Of a stretch of 47,932 nt of DNA, positions 28,317 to 40,725 are shown piece after piece. The DNA comes from a virus: IMG/VR virus record IMGVR_UViG_3300037247_000411, positions 1 through 47,932 of that record; one strand, 5' to 3'. Both the position numbers and the translations under genes were made by a program. The number at the start of each line of letters is the position of its first letter. Within the stretch, counting starts at the first letter, position 1. Under the pieces are notes generated by a model. That model worked only from the letters and a program-made list of their open reading frames with translations. It had not been told where the DNA came from and searched no databases.

Positions 28317-28425
28317 TTTAGGTGATAGAAGTTACAACAGTTTGAGGTAAGATACAATAAAATAATGGGAGTATTTAAGAGGTGCTATCACCCTTTCAAA
28401 GACCTCTGTCGAAGGTAGGGTCGAG

Positions 28426-28507
28426 GGGGATATAAGGCTGACCATTAGGGAAAACTCAGAAATTTTGTAAGAGCACCCGTTATTGTGTCCCCGAGCCTAA
28501 AATCCCC
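28426..28507. repeat. Imperfect 14-bp inverted repeat in the divergent region
   Basis: GGGGATATAAGGCT at 28426-28439 pairs with AGCCTAAAATCCCC at 28494-28507 at 12 of 14 positions. The 54-nt interval carries AAAACTCAGAAATTTTG. It could be a leader RNA hairpin of either arm, an origin structure or a protein site. No T-run marks it as a terminator. Confidence 0.6.
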
Positions 28508-28698
28508 AAGCACCCATCCCCTAGCCATGTATTTAGTGTATGGTCATTAATGTCATGGTGGCAGACTAGGTATGACATTCTGTCATGGTTCAACATGTCA
28601 TATATCATATTGAATCAGGAATTGCAAATTAATGGGGTGCGTATGAAAATAAATTAAATAATGCTTGACTGGTATTATGTAATGGGGTTAACTTTATT

Positions 28699-28718
28699 TG
28701 TCGGTCAGGACACCGACA
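28699..28718. promoter_or_regulatory. 7-bp hairpin or operator
   Basis: TGTCGGT and ACCGACA are exact inverted repeats around a 6-nt loop. There is no T-run, so it is not a simple terminator. It lies about 85 bp before the first rightward gene, fitting an operator or leader hairpin. Confidence 0.5.
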
Positions 28719-28751
28719 TCACAATTTGGCTGTTTGACAATTTGGCAGACT

Positions 28752-28767
28752 AACGTGTCATCACGTT
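28752..28767. promoter_or_regulatory. Palindrome AACGTG-TCAT-CACGTT
   Basis: Exact 6-bp arms around TCAT, 35 bp before the start of the first rightward gene and overlapping one TGTCAT hexamer. The location suits a repressor or activator site controlling the rightward arm. Confidence 0.5.
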
Positions 28768-28801
28768 GGTAATTCATAATCATAATAACAAGGATATAAT
28801 A

Positions 28802-29233
28802 ATGGATAATAATAATATGGTTATCAATACTGGTAACTTGAAGGATGTTAAAATCAACCTCGTACATGAACGCAAGATGACAATGAAAATATTGGGTCAG
28901 GATACGGATTTTAATTTGGTATTCAATTTTGATGGTAATGTAATGCGGGATGTAATCAATCAAGCAGTGCGTATGTCGAAGACTGACTTCGGTAATATGT
29001 TACGTCAATGGGTTAATCAGGGCGTTGATACTGGTACACAGGATGCGGTTGATTGGATTGACAGCATGACTGGTAAACCAATACAAATCAATGTTGAATC
29101 AGCCGGTCATCGCCCAAGCGCACCAATTACAACCAATGCGGTTGCGAACCAATGGAAATCATTGGACAAGGATGAACAGTTGAAACGGTTGGAAGCTTTG
29201 GCAAAACAGGTTGGTGTTGACTTGAAACTGTAA
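28802..29233 (+). CDS. First rightward gene, unknown protein with foreign codon use
   Basis: A 143-residue protein I do not recognise. ATG 28802 follows AAGGAT; an upstream in-frame TTG at 28766 lies in the palindrome and is less likely. The protein opens with an Asn-rich stretch, has a beta-rich part (residues 10-50), then helices (VMRDVINQAVRMSKTDFGNM) and a helical end. All six Arg codons are CGN and Leu is mostly TTG, whereas neighbouring genes use AGA/AGG, CTT and CTA. It stands alone between two non-coding islands and ends in its own terminator. This suggests recent acquisition and independent control; host takeover or regulation are guesses. Confidence 0.7.
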   Translation: MDNNNMVINTGNLKDVKINLVHERKMTMKILGQDTDFNLVFNFDGNVMRDVINQAVRMSKTDFGNMLRQWVNQGVDTGTQDAVDWIDSMTGKPIQINVESAGHRPSAPITTNAVANQWKSLDKDEQLKRLEALAKQVGVDLKL

Positions 29234-29240
29234 ATAATGG

Positions 29241-29277
29241 AATACCCATCAGTCTAACGATTGGTGGGTATTTTTTT
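29241..29277 (+). terminator. Rho-independent terminator
   Basis: AATACCCATCA pairs with TTGGTGGGTATT (one wobble) around a short loop and is followed by seven T. It begins 7 nt after the stop of the 28802-29233 gene, so that gene is a one-gene transcription unit. Confidence 0.85.
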
Positions 29278-29289
29278 GTCCAACCGGTC

Positions 29290-29322
29290 AGGATGGTTGT
29301 CCGAAATTCAACCGACCAGTCT
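29290..29322. repeat. 33-bp palindromic element, copy 5 (degenerate)
   Basis: The left core GTTGTCCGAA and centre A fit the consensus; the right core is TTCAACCGAC instead of TTCGGACAAC. Outer arms are AGGAT and AGTCT. It lies 13 nt after the terminator at 29241-29277 and far from a start codon. A matching right half occurs at 29430-29444. Confidence 0.6.
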
Positions 29323-29429
29323 ACGAAATATTACCTTTAGGGATACAGAGACGTGGGTCAAAGGATGTCAATGTAGTTTTGTTACCTGTAGCGTTGGTAA
29401 CAGGGGGGTGTACCATGTCATCAAAACTG

Positions 29430-29444
29430 TCGGACAACCAGCCT
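29430..29444. repeat. Right half of the palindromic element
   Basis: TCGGACAACCAGCCT equals the right half of the 33-bp element, with no left half directly before it. Together with the good left half at 29290-29306 it could be one element split by about 123 bp. Confidence 0.5.
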
Positions 29445-29473
29445 ATCTCTTTGTCTCTCTCTTGTTCTGTTTT

Positions 29474-29504
29474 AAAAAAAAAAAAAAAAAATAAAAAAAA
29501 AAAA
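29474..29504. repeat. Poly-A tract (18 A, T, 12 A)
   Basis: The longest homopolymer of the window, in non-coding DNA between two half-elements. A-tracts bend DNA and melt easily, as at many origins and strong promoters. Its length is likely to vary between genomes and between sequencing methods. Confidence 0.85.
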
Positions 29505-29568
29505 GAATAACAAAAACCCTAAAGATTTAGACTACCACACAGTACACTAGCACATGACACTACAGGAT

Positions 29569-33783: not shown

Positions 33784-33804
33784 ACTTATCCGGTAAGTAG
33801 TTTG

Positions 33805-33839
33805 GAAGGGCTCTTCAAAATGTTGAGCCCTTCTTTTTT
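33805..33839 (+). terminator. Rho-independent terminator
   Basis: A perfect 9-bp stem, GAAGGGCTC and GAGCCCTTC, with an 11-nt loop followed by six T. It ends the first rightward small-gene transcription unit, 22 nt after the stop codon at 33783. Confidence 0.92.
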
Positions 33840-33856
33840 ATACCTTTAATGGTATA
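33839..33856. promoter_or_regulatory. Inverted repeat TATACC-TTTAAT-GGTATA
   Basis: Exact 6-bp arms around a 6-nt centre directly after the terminator and 36 bp before the next gene. As a new transcription unit must start here, it may be part of the promoter or operator; the -35 and -10 boxes are not clear. Confidence 0.45.
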
Positions 33857-33891
33857 TTACGCATTTAATAAAGAATAATAAGAAGTATAAT

Positions 33892-36028: not shown

Positions 36029-36031
36029 AAG

Positions 36032-36127
36032 CTTGGGGAGGATTACTTGCTATAGGACTACCAGTCTAGAGATATAGTGATTGGGTTTTTGACTTGGTAA
36101 TGGTCATGCCTATAGTACCTCCCTGAG
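36032..36127 (+). ncRNA. Structured RNA / 5' leader element, about 96 nt
   Basis: The ends form a 10-bp stem (36032-36041 with 36118-36127, including wobbles; core GGGAGG/CCTCCC), then a second 7-bp stem CTATAGG/CCTATAG (36050-36056, 36109-36115), and inside ACTACCAGTC can pair with GACTTGGTA. Nothing is coded in this gap of 128 bp. It lies 30 nt before ATG 36157, so it could be a leader switch or a separate small RNA. I recognise no known riboswitch. Not a tRNA: no T-loop. Confidence 0.55.
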
Positions 36128-36156
36128 AACTGTTAATAATAAGAAAAGGAAATAAA

Positions 36157-36786: not shown

Positions 36787-36797
36787 ATAAGTAACGT

Positions 36798-36917
36798 AGA
36801 ACAGTTGCACTAATTGGTAAAGTGCAGTATGGCTCTCATAACATACATACTCCCACGAACCGTAGTCGTAGTAAGTTGAAATGCTAGAGGTTGGAGGTTC
36901 GAATCCTCCCTGTTCTA
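36798..36917 (+). tRNA. tRNA-like gene, CAT anticodon, with insertions
   Basis: Acceptor AGAACAG (36798-36804) pairs with CTGTTCT (36910-36916), discriminator A; D-arm GCAC/GTGC with a GG-containing loop; one base; anticodon stem GTATG/CATAC; V-loop AGGTT; T-arm GGAGG-TTCGAAT-CCTCC. These parts would form a normal 76-nt tRNA with loop CTCATAA (CAT, Met-type). But the anticodon loop has three extra bases and 41 nt separate the anticodon stem from the V-loop, giving 120 nt. No CCA is encoded. It may be an intron-bearing tRNA, a tRNA with a giant variable arm or a tRNA mimic. Confidence 0.6.
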
Positions 36918-36920
36918 CTG

Positions 36921-37119
36921 CTGTAGTGGTATCCCCTATCGGAAACATTGGAGTTTCCTAAAAAGGGAGAGTGGTGGACAATCATCTCACTGTGTAGAGA
37001 TAACAAATCCATAGCCATTATAAACCTTGAAGTTTCTAGATTAAAAAGAAACTTTGAGGGTTATGCACAGTTAGTGGAGTACGGTAGAGCTGACTTAGTA
37101 ATATCGTGTGCCACTACAG
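36921..37119 (+). ncRNA. Structured non-coding RNA, about 199 nt
   Basis: A perfect 9-bp terminal stem, CTGTAGTGG (36921-36929) with CCACTACAG (37111-37119), closes a region without a gene. Inside are GGAAAC/GTTTCC (36941-36958), ATCTC/GAGAT (36984-37001) and a strong hairpin AAGTTTCT/AGAAACTT extended by AACC/GGTT (37023-37062), and a weaker CAGTT/AGCTG. It starts 3 nt after the tRNA-like gene and may be co-transcribed with it. I cannot match it to a known family (not tmRNA, 6S or RNase P by eye). Confidence 0.65.
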
Positions 37120-37148
37120 TATAGACGATAATAATAAGGAAAATAATA

Positions 37149-38873: not shown

Positions 38874-38879
38874 CTGATT

Positions 38880-38912
38880 AGTCTGGTTGTACGAAATTCG
38901 TACAACTAGGCT
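38880..38912. repeat. 33-bp palindromic element, copy 7 (perfect core)
   Basis: GTTGTACGAA, A, TTCGTACAAC is a perfect inverted core; AGTCT and AGGCT form the outer arms, extended by TT and AA further out. It begins 7 nt after a stop codon and ends 24 nt before ATG 38937. Confidence 0.85.
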
Positions 38913-38936
38913 AACCATTAATAATAAGGAGCTGTT

Positions 38937-40176: not shown

Positions 40177-40569
40177 ATGGGTTTACTAGACCTACATCTC
40201 GATAAAGTACCTGACCAAAAGCCTGTTACAGGTGGTGAGGAATATAAACTAACCATAAAAACTTGTGAACAAAAGGATAGTAGCGGTGGAAAACCTATGT
40301 TAGCTATAATGTTCACAATCAATGACCATCCTGACGCACCGCCGGTGTTTCAGAACTTTATGCTTCCTGAAAAGGAAGATGATAAAGCCATTAAGTTCAT
40401 GAAGCTTCGTAGAATTAAGGACTTAGTAATAGCTCTAGGTAGAGACCCTGCCGAGGCTATTCAACTTGATGACCTACCTGGTGAGGGCTTGTGGGCTATC
40501 CTTAAAGAAGATAGTGATGCTACTTATGGTGATAGGAATATTATTGGTAAGTTTATAAACCAAGCATAA
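40177..40569 (+). CDS. SSB-like protein (DUF669 type)
   Basis: A 130-residue protein. The pattern GEEYKLTIKTCEQKDSSGGK, PMLAIMFTINDHPDAPP and GLWAILKEDSDATYGDRNII fits the OB-fold, DUF669-like single-strand binding proteins that accompany Sak4-type recombinases. AAAGGAGAG precedes ATG 40177. It lacks a long acidic tail. The tRNA-like element begins 5 nt after the stop. Confidence 0.65.
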   Translation: MGLLDLHLDKVPDQKPVTGGEEYKLTIKTCEQKDSSGGKPMLAIMFTINDHPDAPPVFQNFMLPEKEDDKAIKFMKLRRIKDLVIALGRDPAEAIQLDDLPGEGLWAILKEDSDATYGDRNIIGKFINQA

Positions 40570-40574
40570 ACGGT

Positions 40575-40704
40575 AGGGCAGTAACATAGATGGCTTAATG
40601 TTGACAAGTTCGGATTTAGCCCGAACATCTAAGATAACCTCCTTGAGTGATGGCTTAGACATCTTTACTTGGGGAGGTCGCAGGTTCGAATCCTGTCTGC
40701 CTTA
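40575..40704 (+). tRNA. tRNA-like gene, 130 nt, anticodon arm unclear
   Basis: Acceptor AGGGCAG (40575-40581) pairs with CTGCCTT (40697-40703) plus discriminator A; D-like arm ACAT/ATGT with a GG loop; V-loop-like AGGTC; T-arm GCAGG-TTCGAAT-CCTGT. Between D and T arms are about 55 extra bases with two strong stems: GTTCGG/CCGAAC (loop ATTTAGC) and ACCTCC/GGAGGT enclosing GATG-GCTTAGA-CATC. Neither gives standard anticodon-arm spacing. If ATTTAGC is the loop, the anticodon would be TTA (ochre), but I do not claim this. No CCA is encoded. Confidence 0.5.
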
Positions 40705-40725
40705 CAACTTTAGAGAGGAATAGTT

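Follow-up and report, generated by a model that had tools for sequence, protein, structure and literature searches.

Introduction

Why would a phage carry a gene whose two ends fold like a transfer RNA (tRNA), while its middle does not? The question is raised by element W1, on the plus strand of a 47.9 kb IMG/VR virus record (IMGVR_UViG_3300037247_000411), whose whole stretch of 47,932 nucleotides (nt) is here called the window. The window is the genome of a tailed phage, a distant kin of which is Desulfofustis phage LS06-2018-MD01 (DNA polymerase identity 42%). Genome bins of WOR-3, Bacteroidales, Desulfobacteraceae and others also match it, but these matches may be binning errors. The original prediction, made from the letters of the window, saw in W1 a tRNA-like gene carrying an insertion. 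That observation is real and confirmed here, and its interpretation is partly supported. W1 proved to be no isolated oddity, since it is one of two such elements in the window phage (the second is W2) and one member of a large group.

On balance, we lean towards reading W1 and W2 as phage-encoded RNAs with a tRNA head and a lineage-specific payload, a view drawn from comparison of sequences. Both elements and their relatives have a paired acceptor, a D-arm and a T-arm placed around an oversized, unconserved insert, and all are found in phages. The class of phage RNAs to which they belong is apparently widespread and undescribed; no description of it was found in open-access literature or in Rfam 15.

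Two tRNA-Like Elements in One Phage Genome

The tRNA-like parts of W1 all lie where they had been predicted, namely the acceptor AGAACAG/CTGTTCT, the D-arm, a hairpin and the T-arm GGAGG-TTCGAAT-CCTCC. The hairpin GTATG-GCTCTCATAA-CATAC has a loop of 10 nt (7+3), which agrees with the three extra loop bases, and 46 nt (the 41-nt insertion and AGGTT) precede the T-arm. The position was right, but the acceptor of 7 base pairs (bp) and the limits 36798-36917 were not. The acceptor helix is really 9 bp (GTAGAACAG/CTGTTCTAC), and W1 therefore spans 36796-36918. Its parts are as follows:

36796-36918, plus strand: W1 as a whole, with 9-bp closing helix, D-arm and T-arm (fold and descriptor)
36796-36804, plus strand: acceptor 5' strand GTAGAACAG, partner 36910-36918 (mean pair probability 0.99; covaries in the 11-member set)
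36806-36826, plus strand: D-arm TGCACT-AATTGGTAA-AGTGCA, with GG (mean pair probability 0.91)
36827-36846, plus strand: hairpin at the anticodon position, 10-nt loop GCTCTCATAA (fold, mean probability 0.48)
36847-36892, plus strand: inserted region of 46 nt, an 11-nt linker and a weak extra arm at 36858-36892 (fold, mean probability 0.2-0.44)
36893-36909, plus strand: T-arm GGAGG-TTCGAAT-CCTCC (mean pair probability 0.93)
36910-36918, plus strand: acceptor 3' strand CTGTTCTAC, 9-bp helix with 36796-36804 (fold)

The possible extra arm within the insert would have about 11 bp with bulges and is weak in the fold (mean pair probability 0.2-0.44). The RNA fold of W1 as a whole has z = -2.2. The second element occupies an intergenic gap, 3 nt after one stop codon and 20 nt before the next start:

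40573-40705, plus strand: W2 as a whole, 3 nt past the SSB-like gene (descriptor; fold z = -4.6)
40573-40581, plus strand: acceptor 5' strand GTAGGGCAG, partner CTGCCTTAC at 40697-40705 (mean pair probability 0.99)
40582-40603, plus strand: D-arm, loop AGATGGCTTA (fold)
40608-40626, plus strand: hairpin at the anticodon position GTTCGG-ATTTAGC-CCGAAC, 6 bp/7 nt (mean pair probability 0.98)
40637-40678, plus strand: extra arm, 12 bp + 4 bp (mean pair probability 0.98 for the 12-bp part)
40680-40696, plus strand: T-arm GCAGG-TTCGAAT-CCTGT (mean pair probability 0.98)
40177-40569, plus strand: SSB-like gene directly 5' of W2 (weak PHROG match to single-stranded DNA-binding protein; synteny, since in six sister phages a homologue stands ahead of the element)

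A descriptor was written with a 7-bp acceptor, a D-arm with GG and a 5-bp T-arm with TTCRA, the distance between the arms being free. It matches the real window exactly twice, at W1 and W2, both with a 9-bp acceptor. Over 300 Markov-shuffled windows it gave 10 matches in total, one of them with a 9-bp acceptor, and W1 and W2 are therefore not products of chance. Both have the tRNA features of acceptor helix, D-arm with GG and T-arm with TTCRA. The canonical anticodon arm of 5 bp/7 nt directly after position 26 is absent from both, since the loop of W1 has 10 nt and the hairpin of W2 is offset. Excision of any one contiguous piece restored no such arm in either element, in the geometry that was tested.

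Standard tools pass these elements over: neither Rfam at its gathering threshold nor ARAGORN with default settings reported W1 or W2. Under permissive settings W1 scored 20.6 bits against the Rfam tRNA gathering threshold of 29, with a wrong 5' strand placed, and no Rfam tRNA match to W2 was kept. ARAGORN with introns allowed did return W1, as tRNA-Ser(tga) with a 45-nt intron and a 4-bp stem, a call that we distrust. The Met-type (CAT) identity first proposed is doubtful, given the 10-nt loop of W1, the different loop of W2 (ATTTAGC) and the Leu-like D-arm of the wider group.

Two local observations may be added. The string GATGGCTTA is present twice in W2, in the D-loop (40588-40596) and at the tip of the extra arm (40650-40658). 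Immediately 3' of W1, positions 36919-37121 form a strong structure with a 13-bp closing helix (TGCTGTAGTGGTA/TGCCACTACAGTA) and a five-way junction (z = -5.1). This stretch overlaps a 58-amino-acid open reading frame (ORF) at 36948-37124, which starts with TTG and has weak PHROG matches (E about 0.025); the stretch may therefore be RNA, coding, or both.

Sister Phages and Covariation of the Head

Sister phages, whose proteins are 35-60% identical to those of the window phage, carry further elements. Among the relatives found by polymerase alignment most have no such element, the one exception being L026. A scan with the major-capsid alignment brought in 80 further relatives and opened the family, and searches of 40 of these records with Rfam and with a covariance model of W2 flagged long tRNA-like matches. 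Six oversized tRNA-like genes were found in 31 fully read records, with 0.33 expected from shuffled sequence. Additional sister elements are those of L026 and L059 and a 71-nt miniature in G346. With W1 and W2, the class in this phage clade has 11 members (nine in sister phages) of 71-232 nt.

The acceptor helix is 9 bp long in nearly all 11 members, with Watson-Crick changes on both strands at each position. Over acceptor and T-arm, 98.1% of cells are paired, and 50 cells show a double change compared with 14.4 +/- 3.1 after shuffling. The covariation score is 0.90, against 0.26 for shuffled and 0.15-0.23 for slid controls. As the 11 members are kin, these statistics are not a formal probability. 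Both of the two extra acceptor pairs are present in 10 of the 11 clade members and in 7 of 65 ordinary tRNAs of the fetched loci. At the level of sequence comparison, then, the tRNA head is shown to be under base-pair selection.

When phage records were searched by nucleotide similarity, near and distant, the element matched in shared T-arms only. In IMG/VR there was no match to W1 as an exact pattern or to the frame common to W1 and W2, and scans with single proteins of neighbouring genes were fruitless. The G346 miniature (L167, G346:4480-4550) has a 9-bp acceptor and lies directly 5' of a 156-nt element, possibly as a tandem pair. The elements of L026, L059 and G334 (L177) are orthologous, with a common hairpin within the D-loop; a string conserved in them, ACGAAAACRCYTAGCGG, resembles a tmRNA tag region, probably by coincidence.

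Genomic Position, Gain and Loss

These phages keep one gene order: exonuclease, Sak4-like ATPase, SSB-like, ParB-methyltransferase and DNA polymerase. In seven phages (the window phage with W2, L026, L059, G334, G342, G346 and G349) the element follows the SSB-like gene directly or at most 300 nt further on. W1, the G337 element and a second copy in G349 lie upstream of the exonuclease, though at no common gene junction. The SSB site has no element in most of about 45 syntenic records. G359, whose DNA is 80-87% identical to that of G349 around the sites, lacks both G349 copies and has clean junctions there. The element is therefore accessory, gained or lost as a unit. Comparison of the loci shows elements that are intergenic, co-directed with the genes and gained or lost as units.

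Constraint on the insert can be read from close relatives. Over 158 nt, elements L277 and L290 have three differences. Two of these form a compensatory swap in the acceptor, C:G to T:A, and the third is a C to U change in the T-stem which keeps a G:U pair. Their inserts are identical, whereas identity falls to 87% and 91% in the 400-nt flanks. Between L261 and L309 there is a single difference, in the T-stem, beside flanks of 93% and 88% identity. The compensatory change, and a constant insert beside diverged flanks, indicate that head and insert are constrained in both pairs, which argues against decay. The insert is thus shown, by these alignments, to be lineage-specific yet constant in two pairs of close relatives.

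A Wider Class in IMG/VR

The sister-phage elements have a D-arm of the tRNA-Leu type. A pattern for a wider class called for a Leu-type D-arm and then a T-arm at an abnormal distance of 92-122 nt. It matched 68 stretches of IMG/VR, and in 66 of them at least six of the seven acceptor positions are paired, although pairing was absent from the pattern. After removal of near-duplicates and addition of the sister-phage elements, 56 wide-class elements were retained; 47 distinct ones with inserts of at least 80 nt were used for anticodon-arm tests.

A canonical anticodon arm follows the D-arm in none of the 47 (0.25 expected by chance) and adjoins the T-arm in one (1.2 by chance). A helix of the kind that an anticodon-loop intron needs is present in 16, with 8.5 expected, an excess far from the near-100% of tRNAs. 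No insert motif is common to more than a minority, and no shared core was found. The discriminator is A73 in 39 of 56 elements. Wide-class elements are intergenic, with 71 of 93 neighbour genes on the same strand. These neighbours belong to replication and nucleotide metabolism (Sak4, clamp loader, thymidylate synthase, DNA polymerase, Gp2.5-like SSB and one RtcB ligase). Several members score above the Rfam cut-off for tRNA, with matches 136-156 nt long. In 395 bacterial genomes the oversized pattern had no match, but neither had a normal-spacing control, so this count is uninformative.

Three loci deserve mention on their own account. L267:458-570 and L313:2853-2961 are oversized tRNA matches above the Rfam cut-off which the pattern did not pick, and the class therefore exceeds what the pattern shows. 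The contig of L313, which has two oversized tRNA-like genes, also has a Hammerhead type II ribozyme (L313:2002-2076, 49.7 bits). At L274:3938-5095, the sole gene for the tRNA-splicing ligase RtcB among the compared loci stands 24 nt from an oversized tRNA-Leu-like element.

What the Elements May Be

The codon-reading half of these RNAs is replaced by a phage-specific insert, and their role is therefore probably other than codon reading. In the reading that we prefer, the ends would fold as the upper half of a tRNA, with acceptor helix and T-arm, and a D-arm able to make the elbow. In place of the anticodon domain, or deforming it, there would be an insert of about 40-180 nt, different from one phage lineage to another. 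The element would be transcribed with its operon. Host tRNA-maturation enzymes would then recognise the head (RNase P at the 5' end, and 3' tRNA processing) and excise an RNA with stable ends. Stabilised by its head, this RNA would be a naturally occurring equivalent of the 'tRNA scaffold' used in the laboratory. The variable insert could be the working part, perhaps binding RNA or protein of the host or of a competitor. Hypervariability, together with presence or absence among near relatives, would suit counter-defence or host takeover.

A bolder proposal, which we hold to be possible but doubtful, is that many phage lineages use the upper tRNA-Leu half as a standard cap for hypervariable small effector RNAs, a modular and non-translational system hidden from gene finders as unscored or over-long tRNAs. 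If the tRNA-headed reading is right, standard annotation is missing a large stock of phage non-coding RNAs whose ends are conserved and whose middles are interchangeable. It would also raise the question of why phages keep a tRNA head unable to read codons. The finding is also a caution for viral tRNA counts, which leave out some tRNA-like genes and possibly take others for tRNAs. The alignments, the loci and the natural plus/minus pair G349/G359 are ready for testing.

Several facts weigh against the preferred reading. The W2 covariance model gives W1 36 bits and the rest of the window at most 13, but it gives ordinary tRNAs 28-37 bits (297 genomes). The match of W1 therefore indicates tRNA-likeness and not special kinship, and it is unused as proof. 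W1 shares the neighbourhood of the G337 and G349 elements but sits at a different gene junction. In the wide class, it was the search pattern that fixed the D- and T-arm sequence and the length range. W1 and W2 have non-Leu D-arms, keep a hairpin at the anticodon position and are missed by the Leu pattern; their tie to the wide class therefore rests on architecture, synteny (for W2) and phage kinship. Of the three options first offered for W1 (a new short insertion, a processed intron or a tRNA mimic), the mimic fits best. The spliced intron, the decoding tRNA, the tmRNA and the dead pseudogene all fit worse than a tRNA-headed RNA.

Removal of one or more introns, by splicing or by cleavage and ligation, would yield an ordinary tRNA-Leu (for W1, a tRNA-Met). 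The Leu-type D-arm, A73 in 39 of 56 elements, the excess of intron-type helices (16 of 47 versus 8.5) and the L274 element 24 nt from an RtcB gene all speak for it. We judge it unlikely nonetheless, as no single excision yields a canonical arm in W1 or W2, a genuine anticodon stem is expected in nearly all members and seen in a third, the inserts have no conserved ribozyme core, and RtcB is found in one fetched locus only.

Slightly less probable again is that the elements act as decoys for, or inhibitors of, defences or toxins directed at tRNA (anticodon nucleases, 3'-end-modifying toxins), which would bind the head and find the altered anticodon half uncleavable. The counter-defence tRNAs known to us are normal ones, no common anticodon-like loop exists among the elements, and no target is known. 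The accessory, hypervariable elements in an early-operon position would nevertheless suit such a role, and phage tRNAs are reported to counteract tRNA-cutting defence such as PARIS (PMC11455837), an action which favours the decoy.

It is improbable that these RNAs decode, as functional but unusual tRNAs of the allo-tRNA, tRNA-Sec or suppressor type whose variable arm is huge. It is true that in W2, whose loop would read UAA, a 6-bp anticodon stem carries a 7-nt loop with U33 and the extra arm is long, and that allo-tRNA-like RNAs with a five-stem junction have been described (PMC7609411). Against this stand the 10-nt loop of W1, some 4 surplus nt ahead of the stem in W2, an acceptor/T-stem arrangement of 9/5 and not 8/4 or 9/3, the Rfam tRNA-Sec score of 15 bits (cut-off 47), and the lack of an anticodon arm following the D-arm in all 47 wide members.

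The extreme divergence of the inserts and the loss of elements in close relatives could be explained if these were phage tRNA genes in decay, interrupted at random by insertions. This view is very improbable, being largely refuted by the covariation, close-pair and synteny results: acceptor covariation, a compensatory change, a constant insert beside diverged flanks, and recurrence at one locus in seven phages. Least credible of all are tmRNA-like ribosome-rescue RNAs, for although a tRNA head without anticodon arm encloses a variable domain, G346 has a weak Rfam tmRNA match (21.5 bits, E 1e-4, cut-off 47) and L026, G334 and L059 have a tag-like string, a true D-stem is present, the head is Leu-type and not Ala-type, ARAGORN scans of 53 sister loci bring up no tmRNA, and the degron-like tag ends (A[AV]-stop) expected of a tag frame occur in 4 of 56 inserts (1.5 shuffled), so that the tag idea is rejected.

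Comparison with Known Systems

The elements resemble tRNA (RF00005), and especially tRNA-Leu, in acceptor helix, D-arm (TGGCGGAATTGGTAGACGC in the wide class), T-arm and, in most, A73. They differ from it in that the wide class has an insert of 50-180 nt and no canonical anticodon arm, and in that the phage clade of the window has a 9-bp acceptor, with the window copies below the Rfam cut-off. With tmRNA (RF00023) they share a tRNA head without anticodon arm that encloses a different RNA domain; they are a third to a half of its size, possess a D-stem, and no conserved tag frame or pseudoknot core was found in them.

Allo-tRNAs are defined by a 12-bp acceptor branch, 8/4 or 9/3 (PMC7609411). 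A lengthened acceptor branch, long extra arms and extra junction arms recall these and the five-stem-junction RNAs covered by the same review, in which irregular allo-tRNA-like RNAs are likewise of unclear function. Here the branch is 9/5 (9-bp acceptor and 5-bp T-stem), outside that definition, and the inserts are much longer. Allo-tRNA-like RNAs were reported from bacterial genomes and from soil and sediment metagenomes and metatranscriptomes (PMC7609411), whereas the new elements come from phage contigs. W2 is like tRNA-Sec (RF01852) in its long D-stem and long extra arm, and unlike it in score (15 bits, cut-off 47), in having no UCA loop and in its 9/5 arrangement. GOLLD and ROOL are also structured phage RNAs, of unknown function and often near tRNAs (PMC12286853); they are much larger, their cores are conserved, and the new elements have no Rfam match to them.

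Other Structured Sites in the Window

A 1.2-kb stretch at 28317-29546 was considered as a non-coding region and rejected, as an ORF was found inside it. Positions 36029-36156 hold an intergenic nested hairpin (10 bp + 9 bp, z = -2.65). Long perfect intergenic hairpins are present at 38874-38936 and 33784-33891 (GTTGTACGAAATTCGTACAAC type; GGAAGGGCTC...GAGCCCTTC followed by a T-run, terminator-like).
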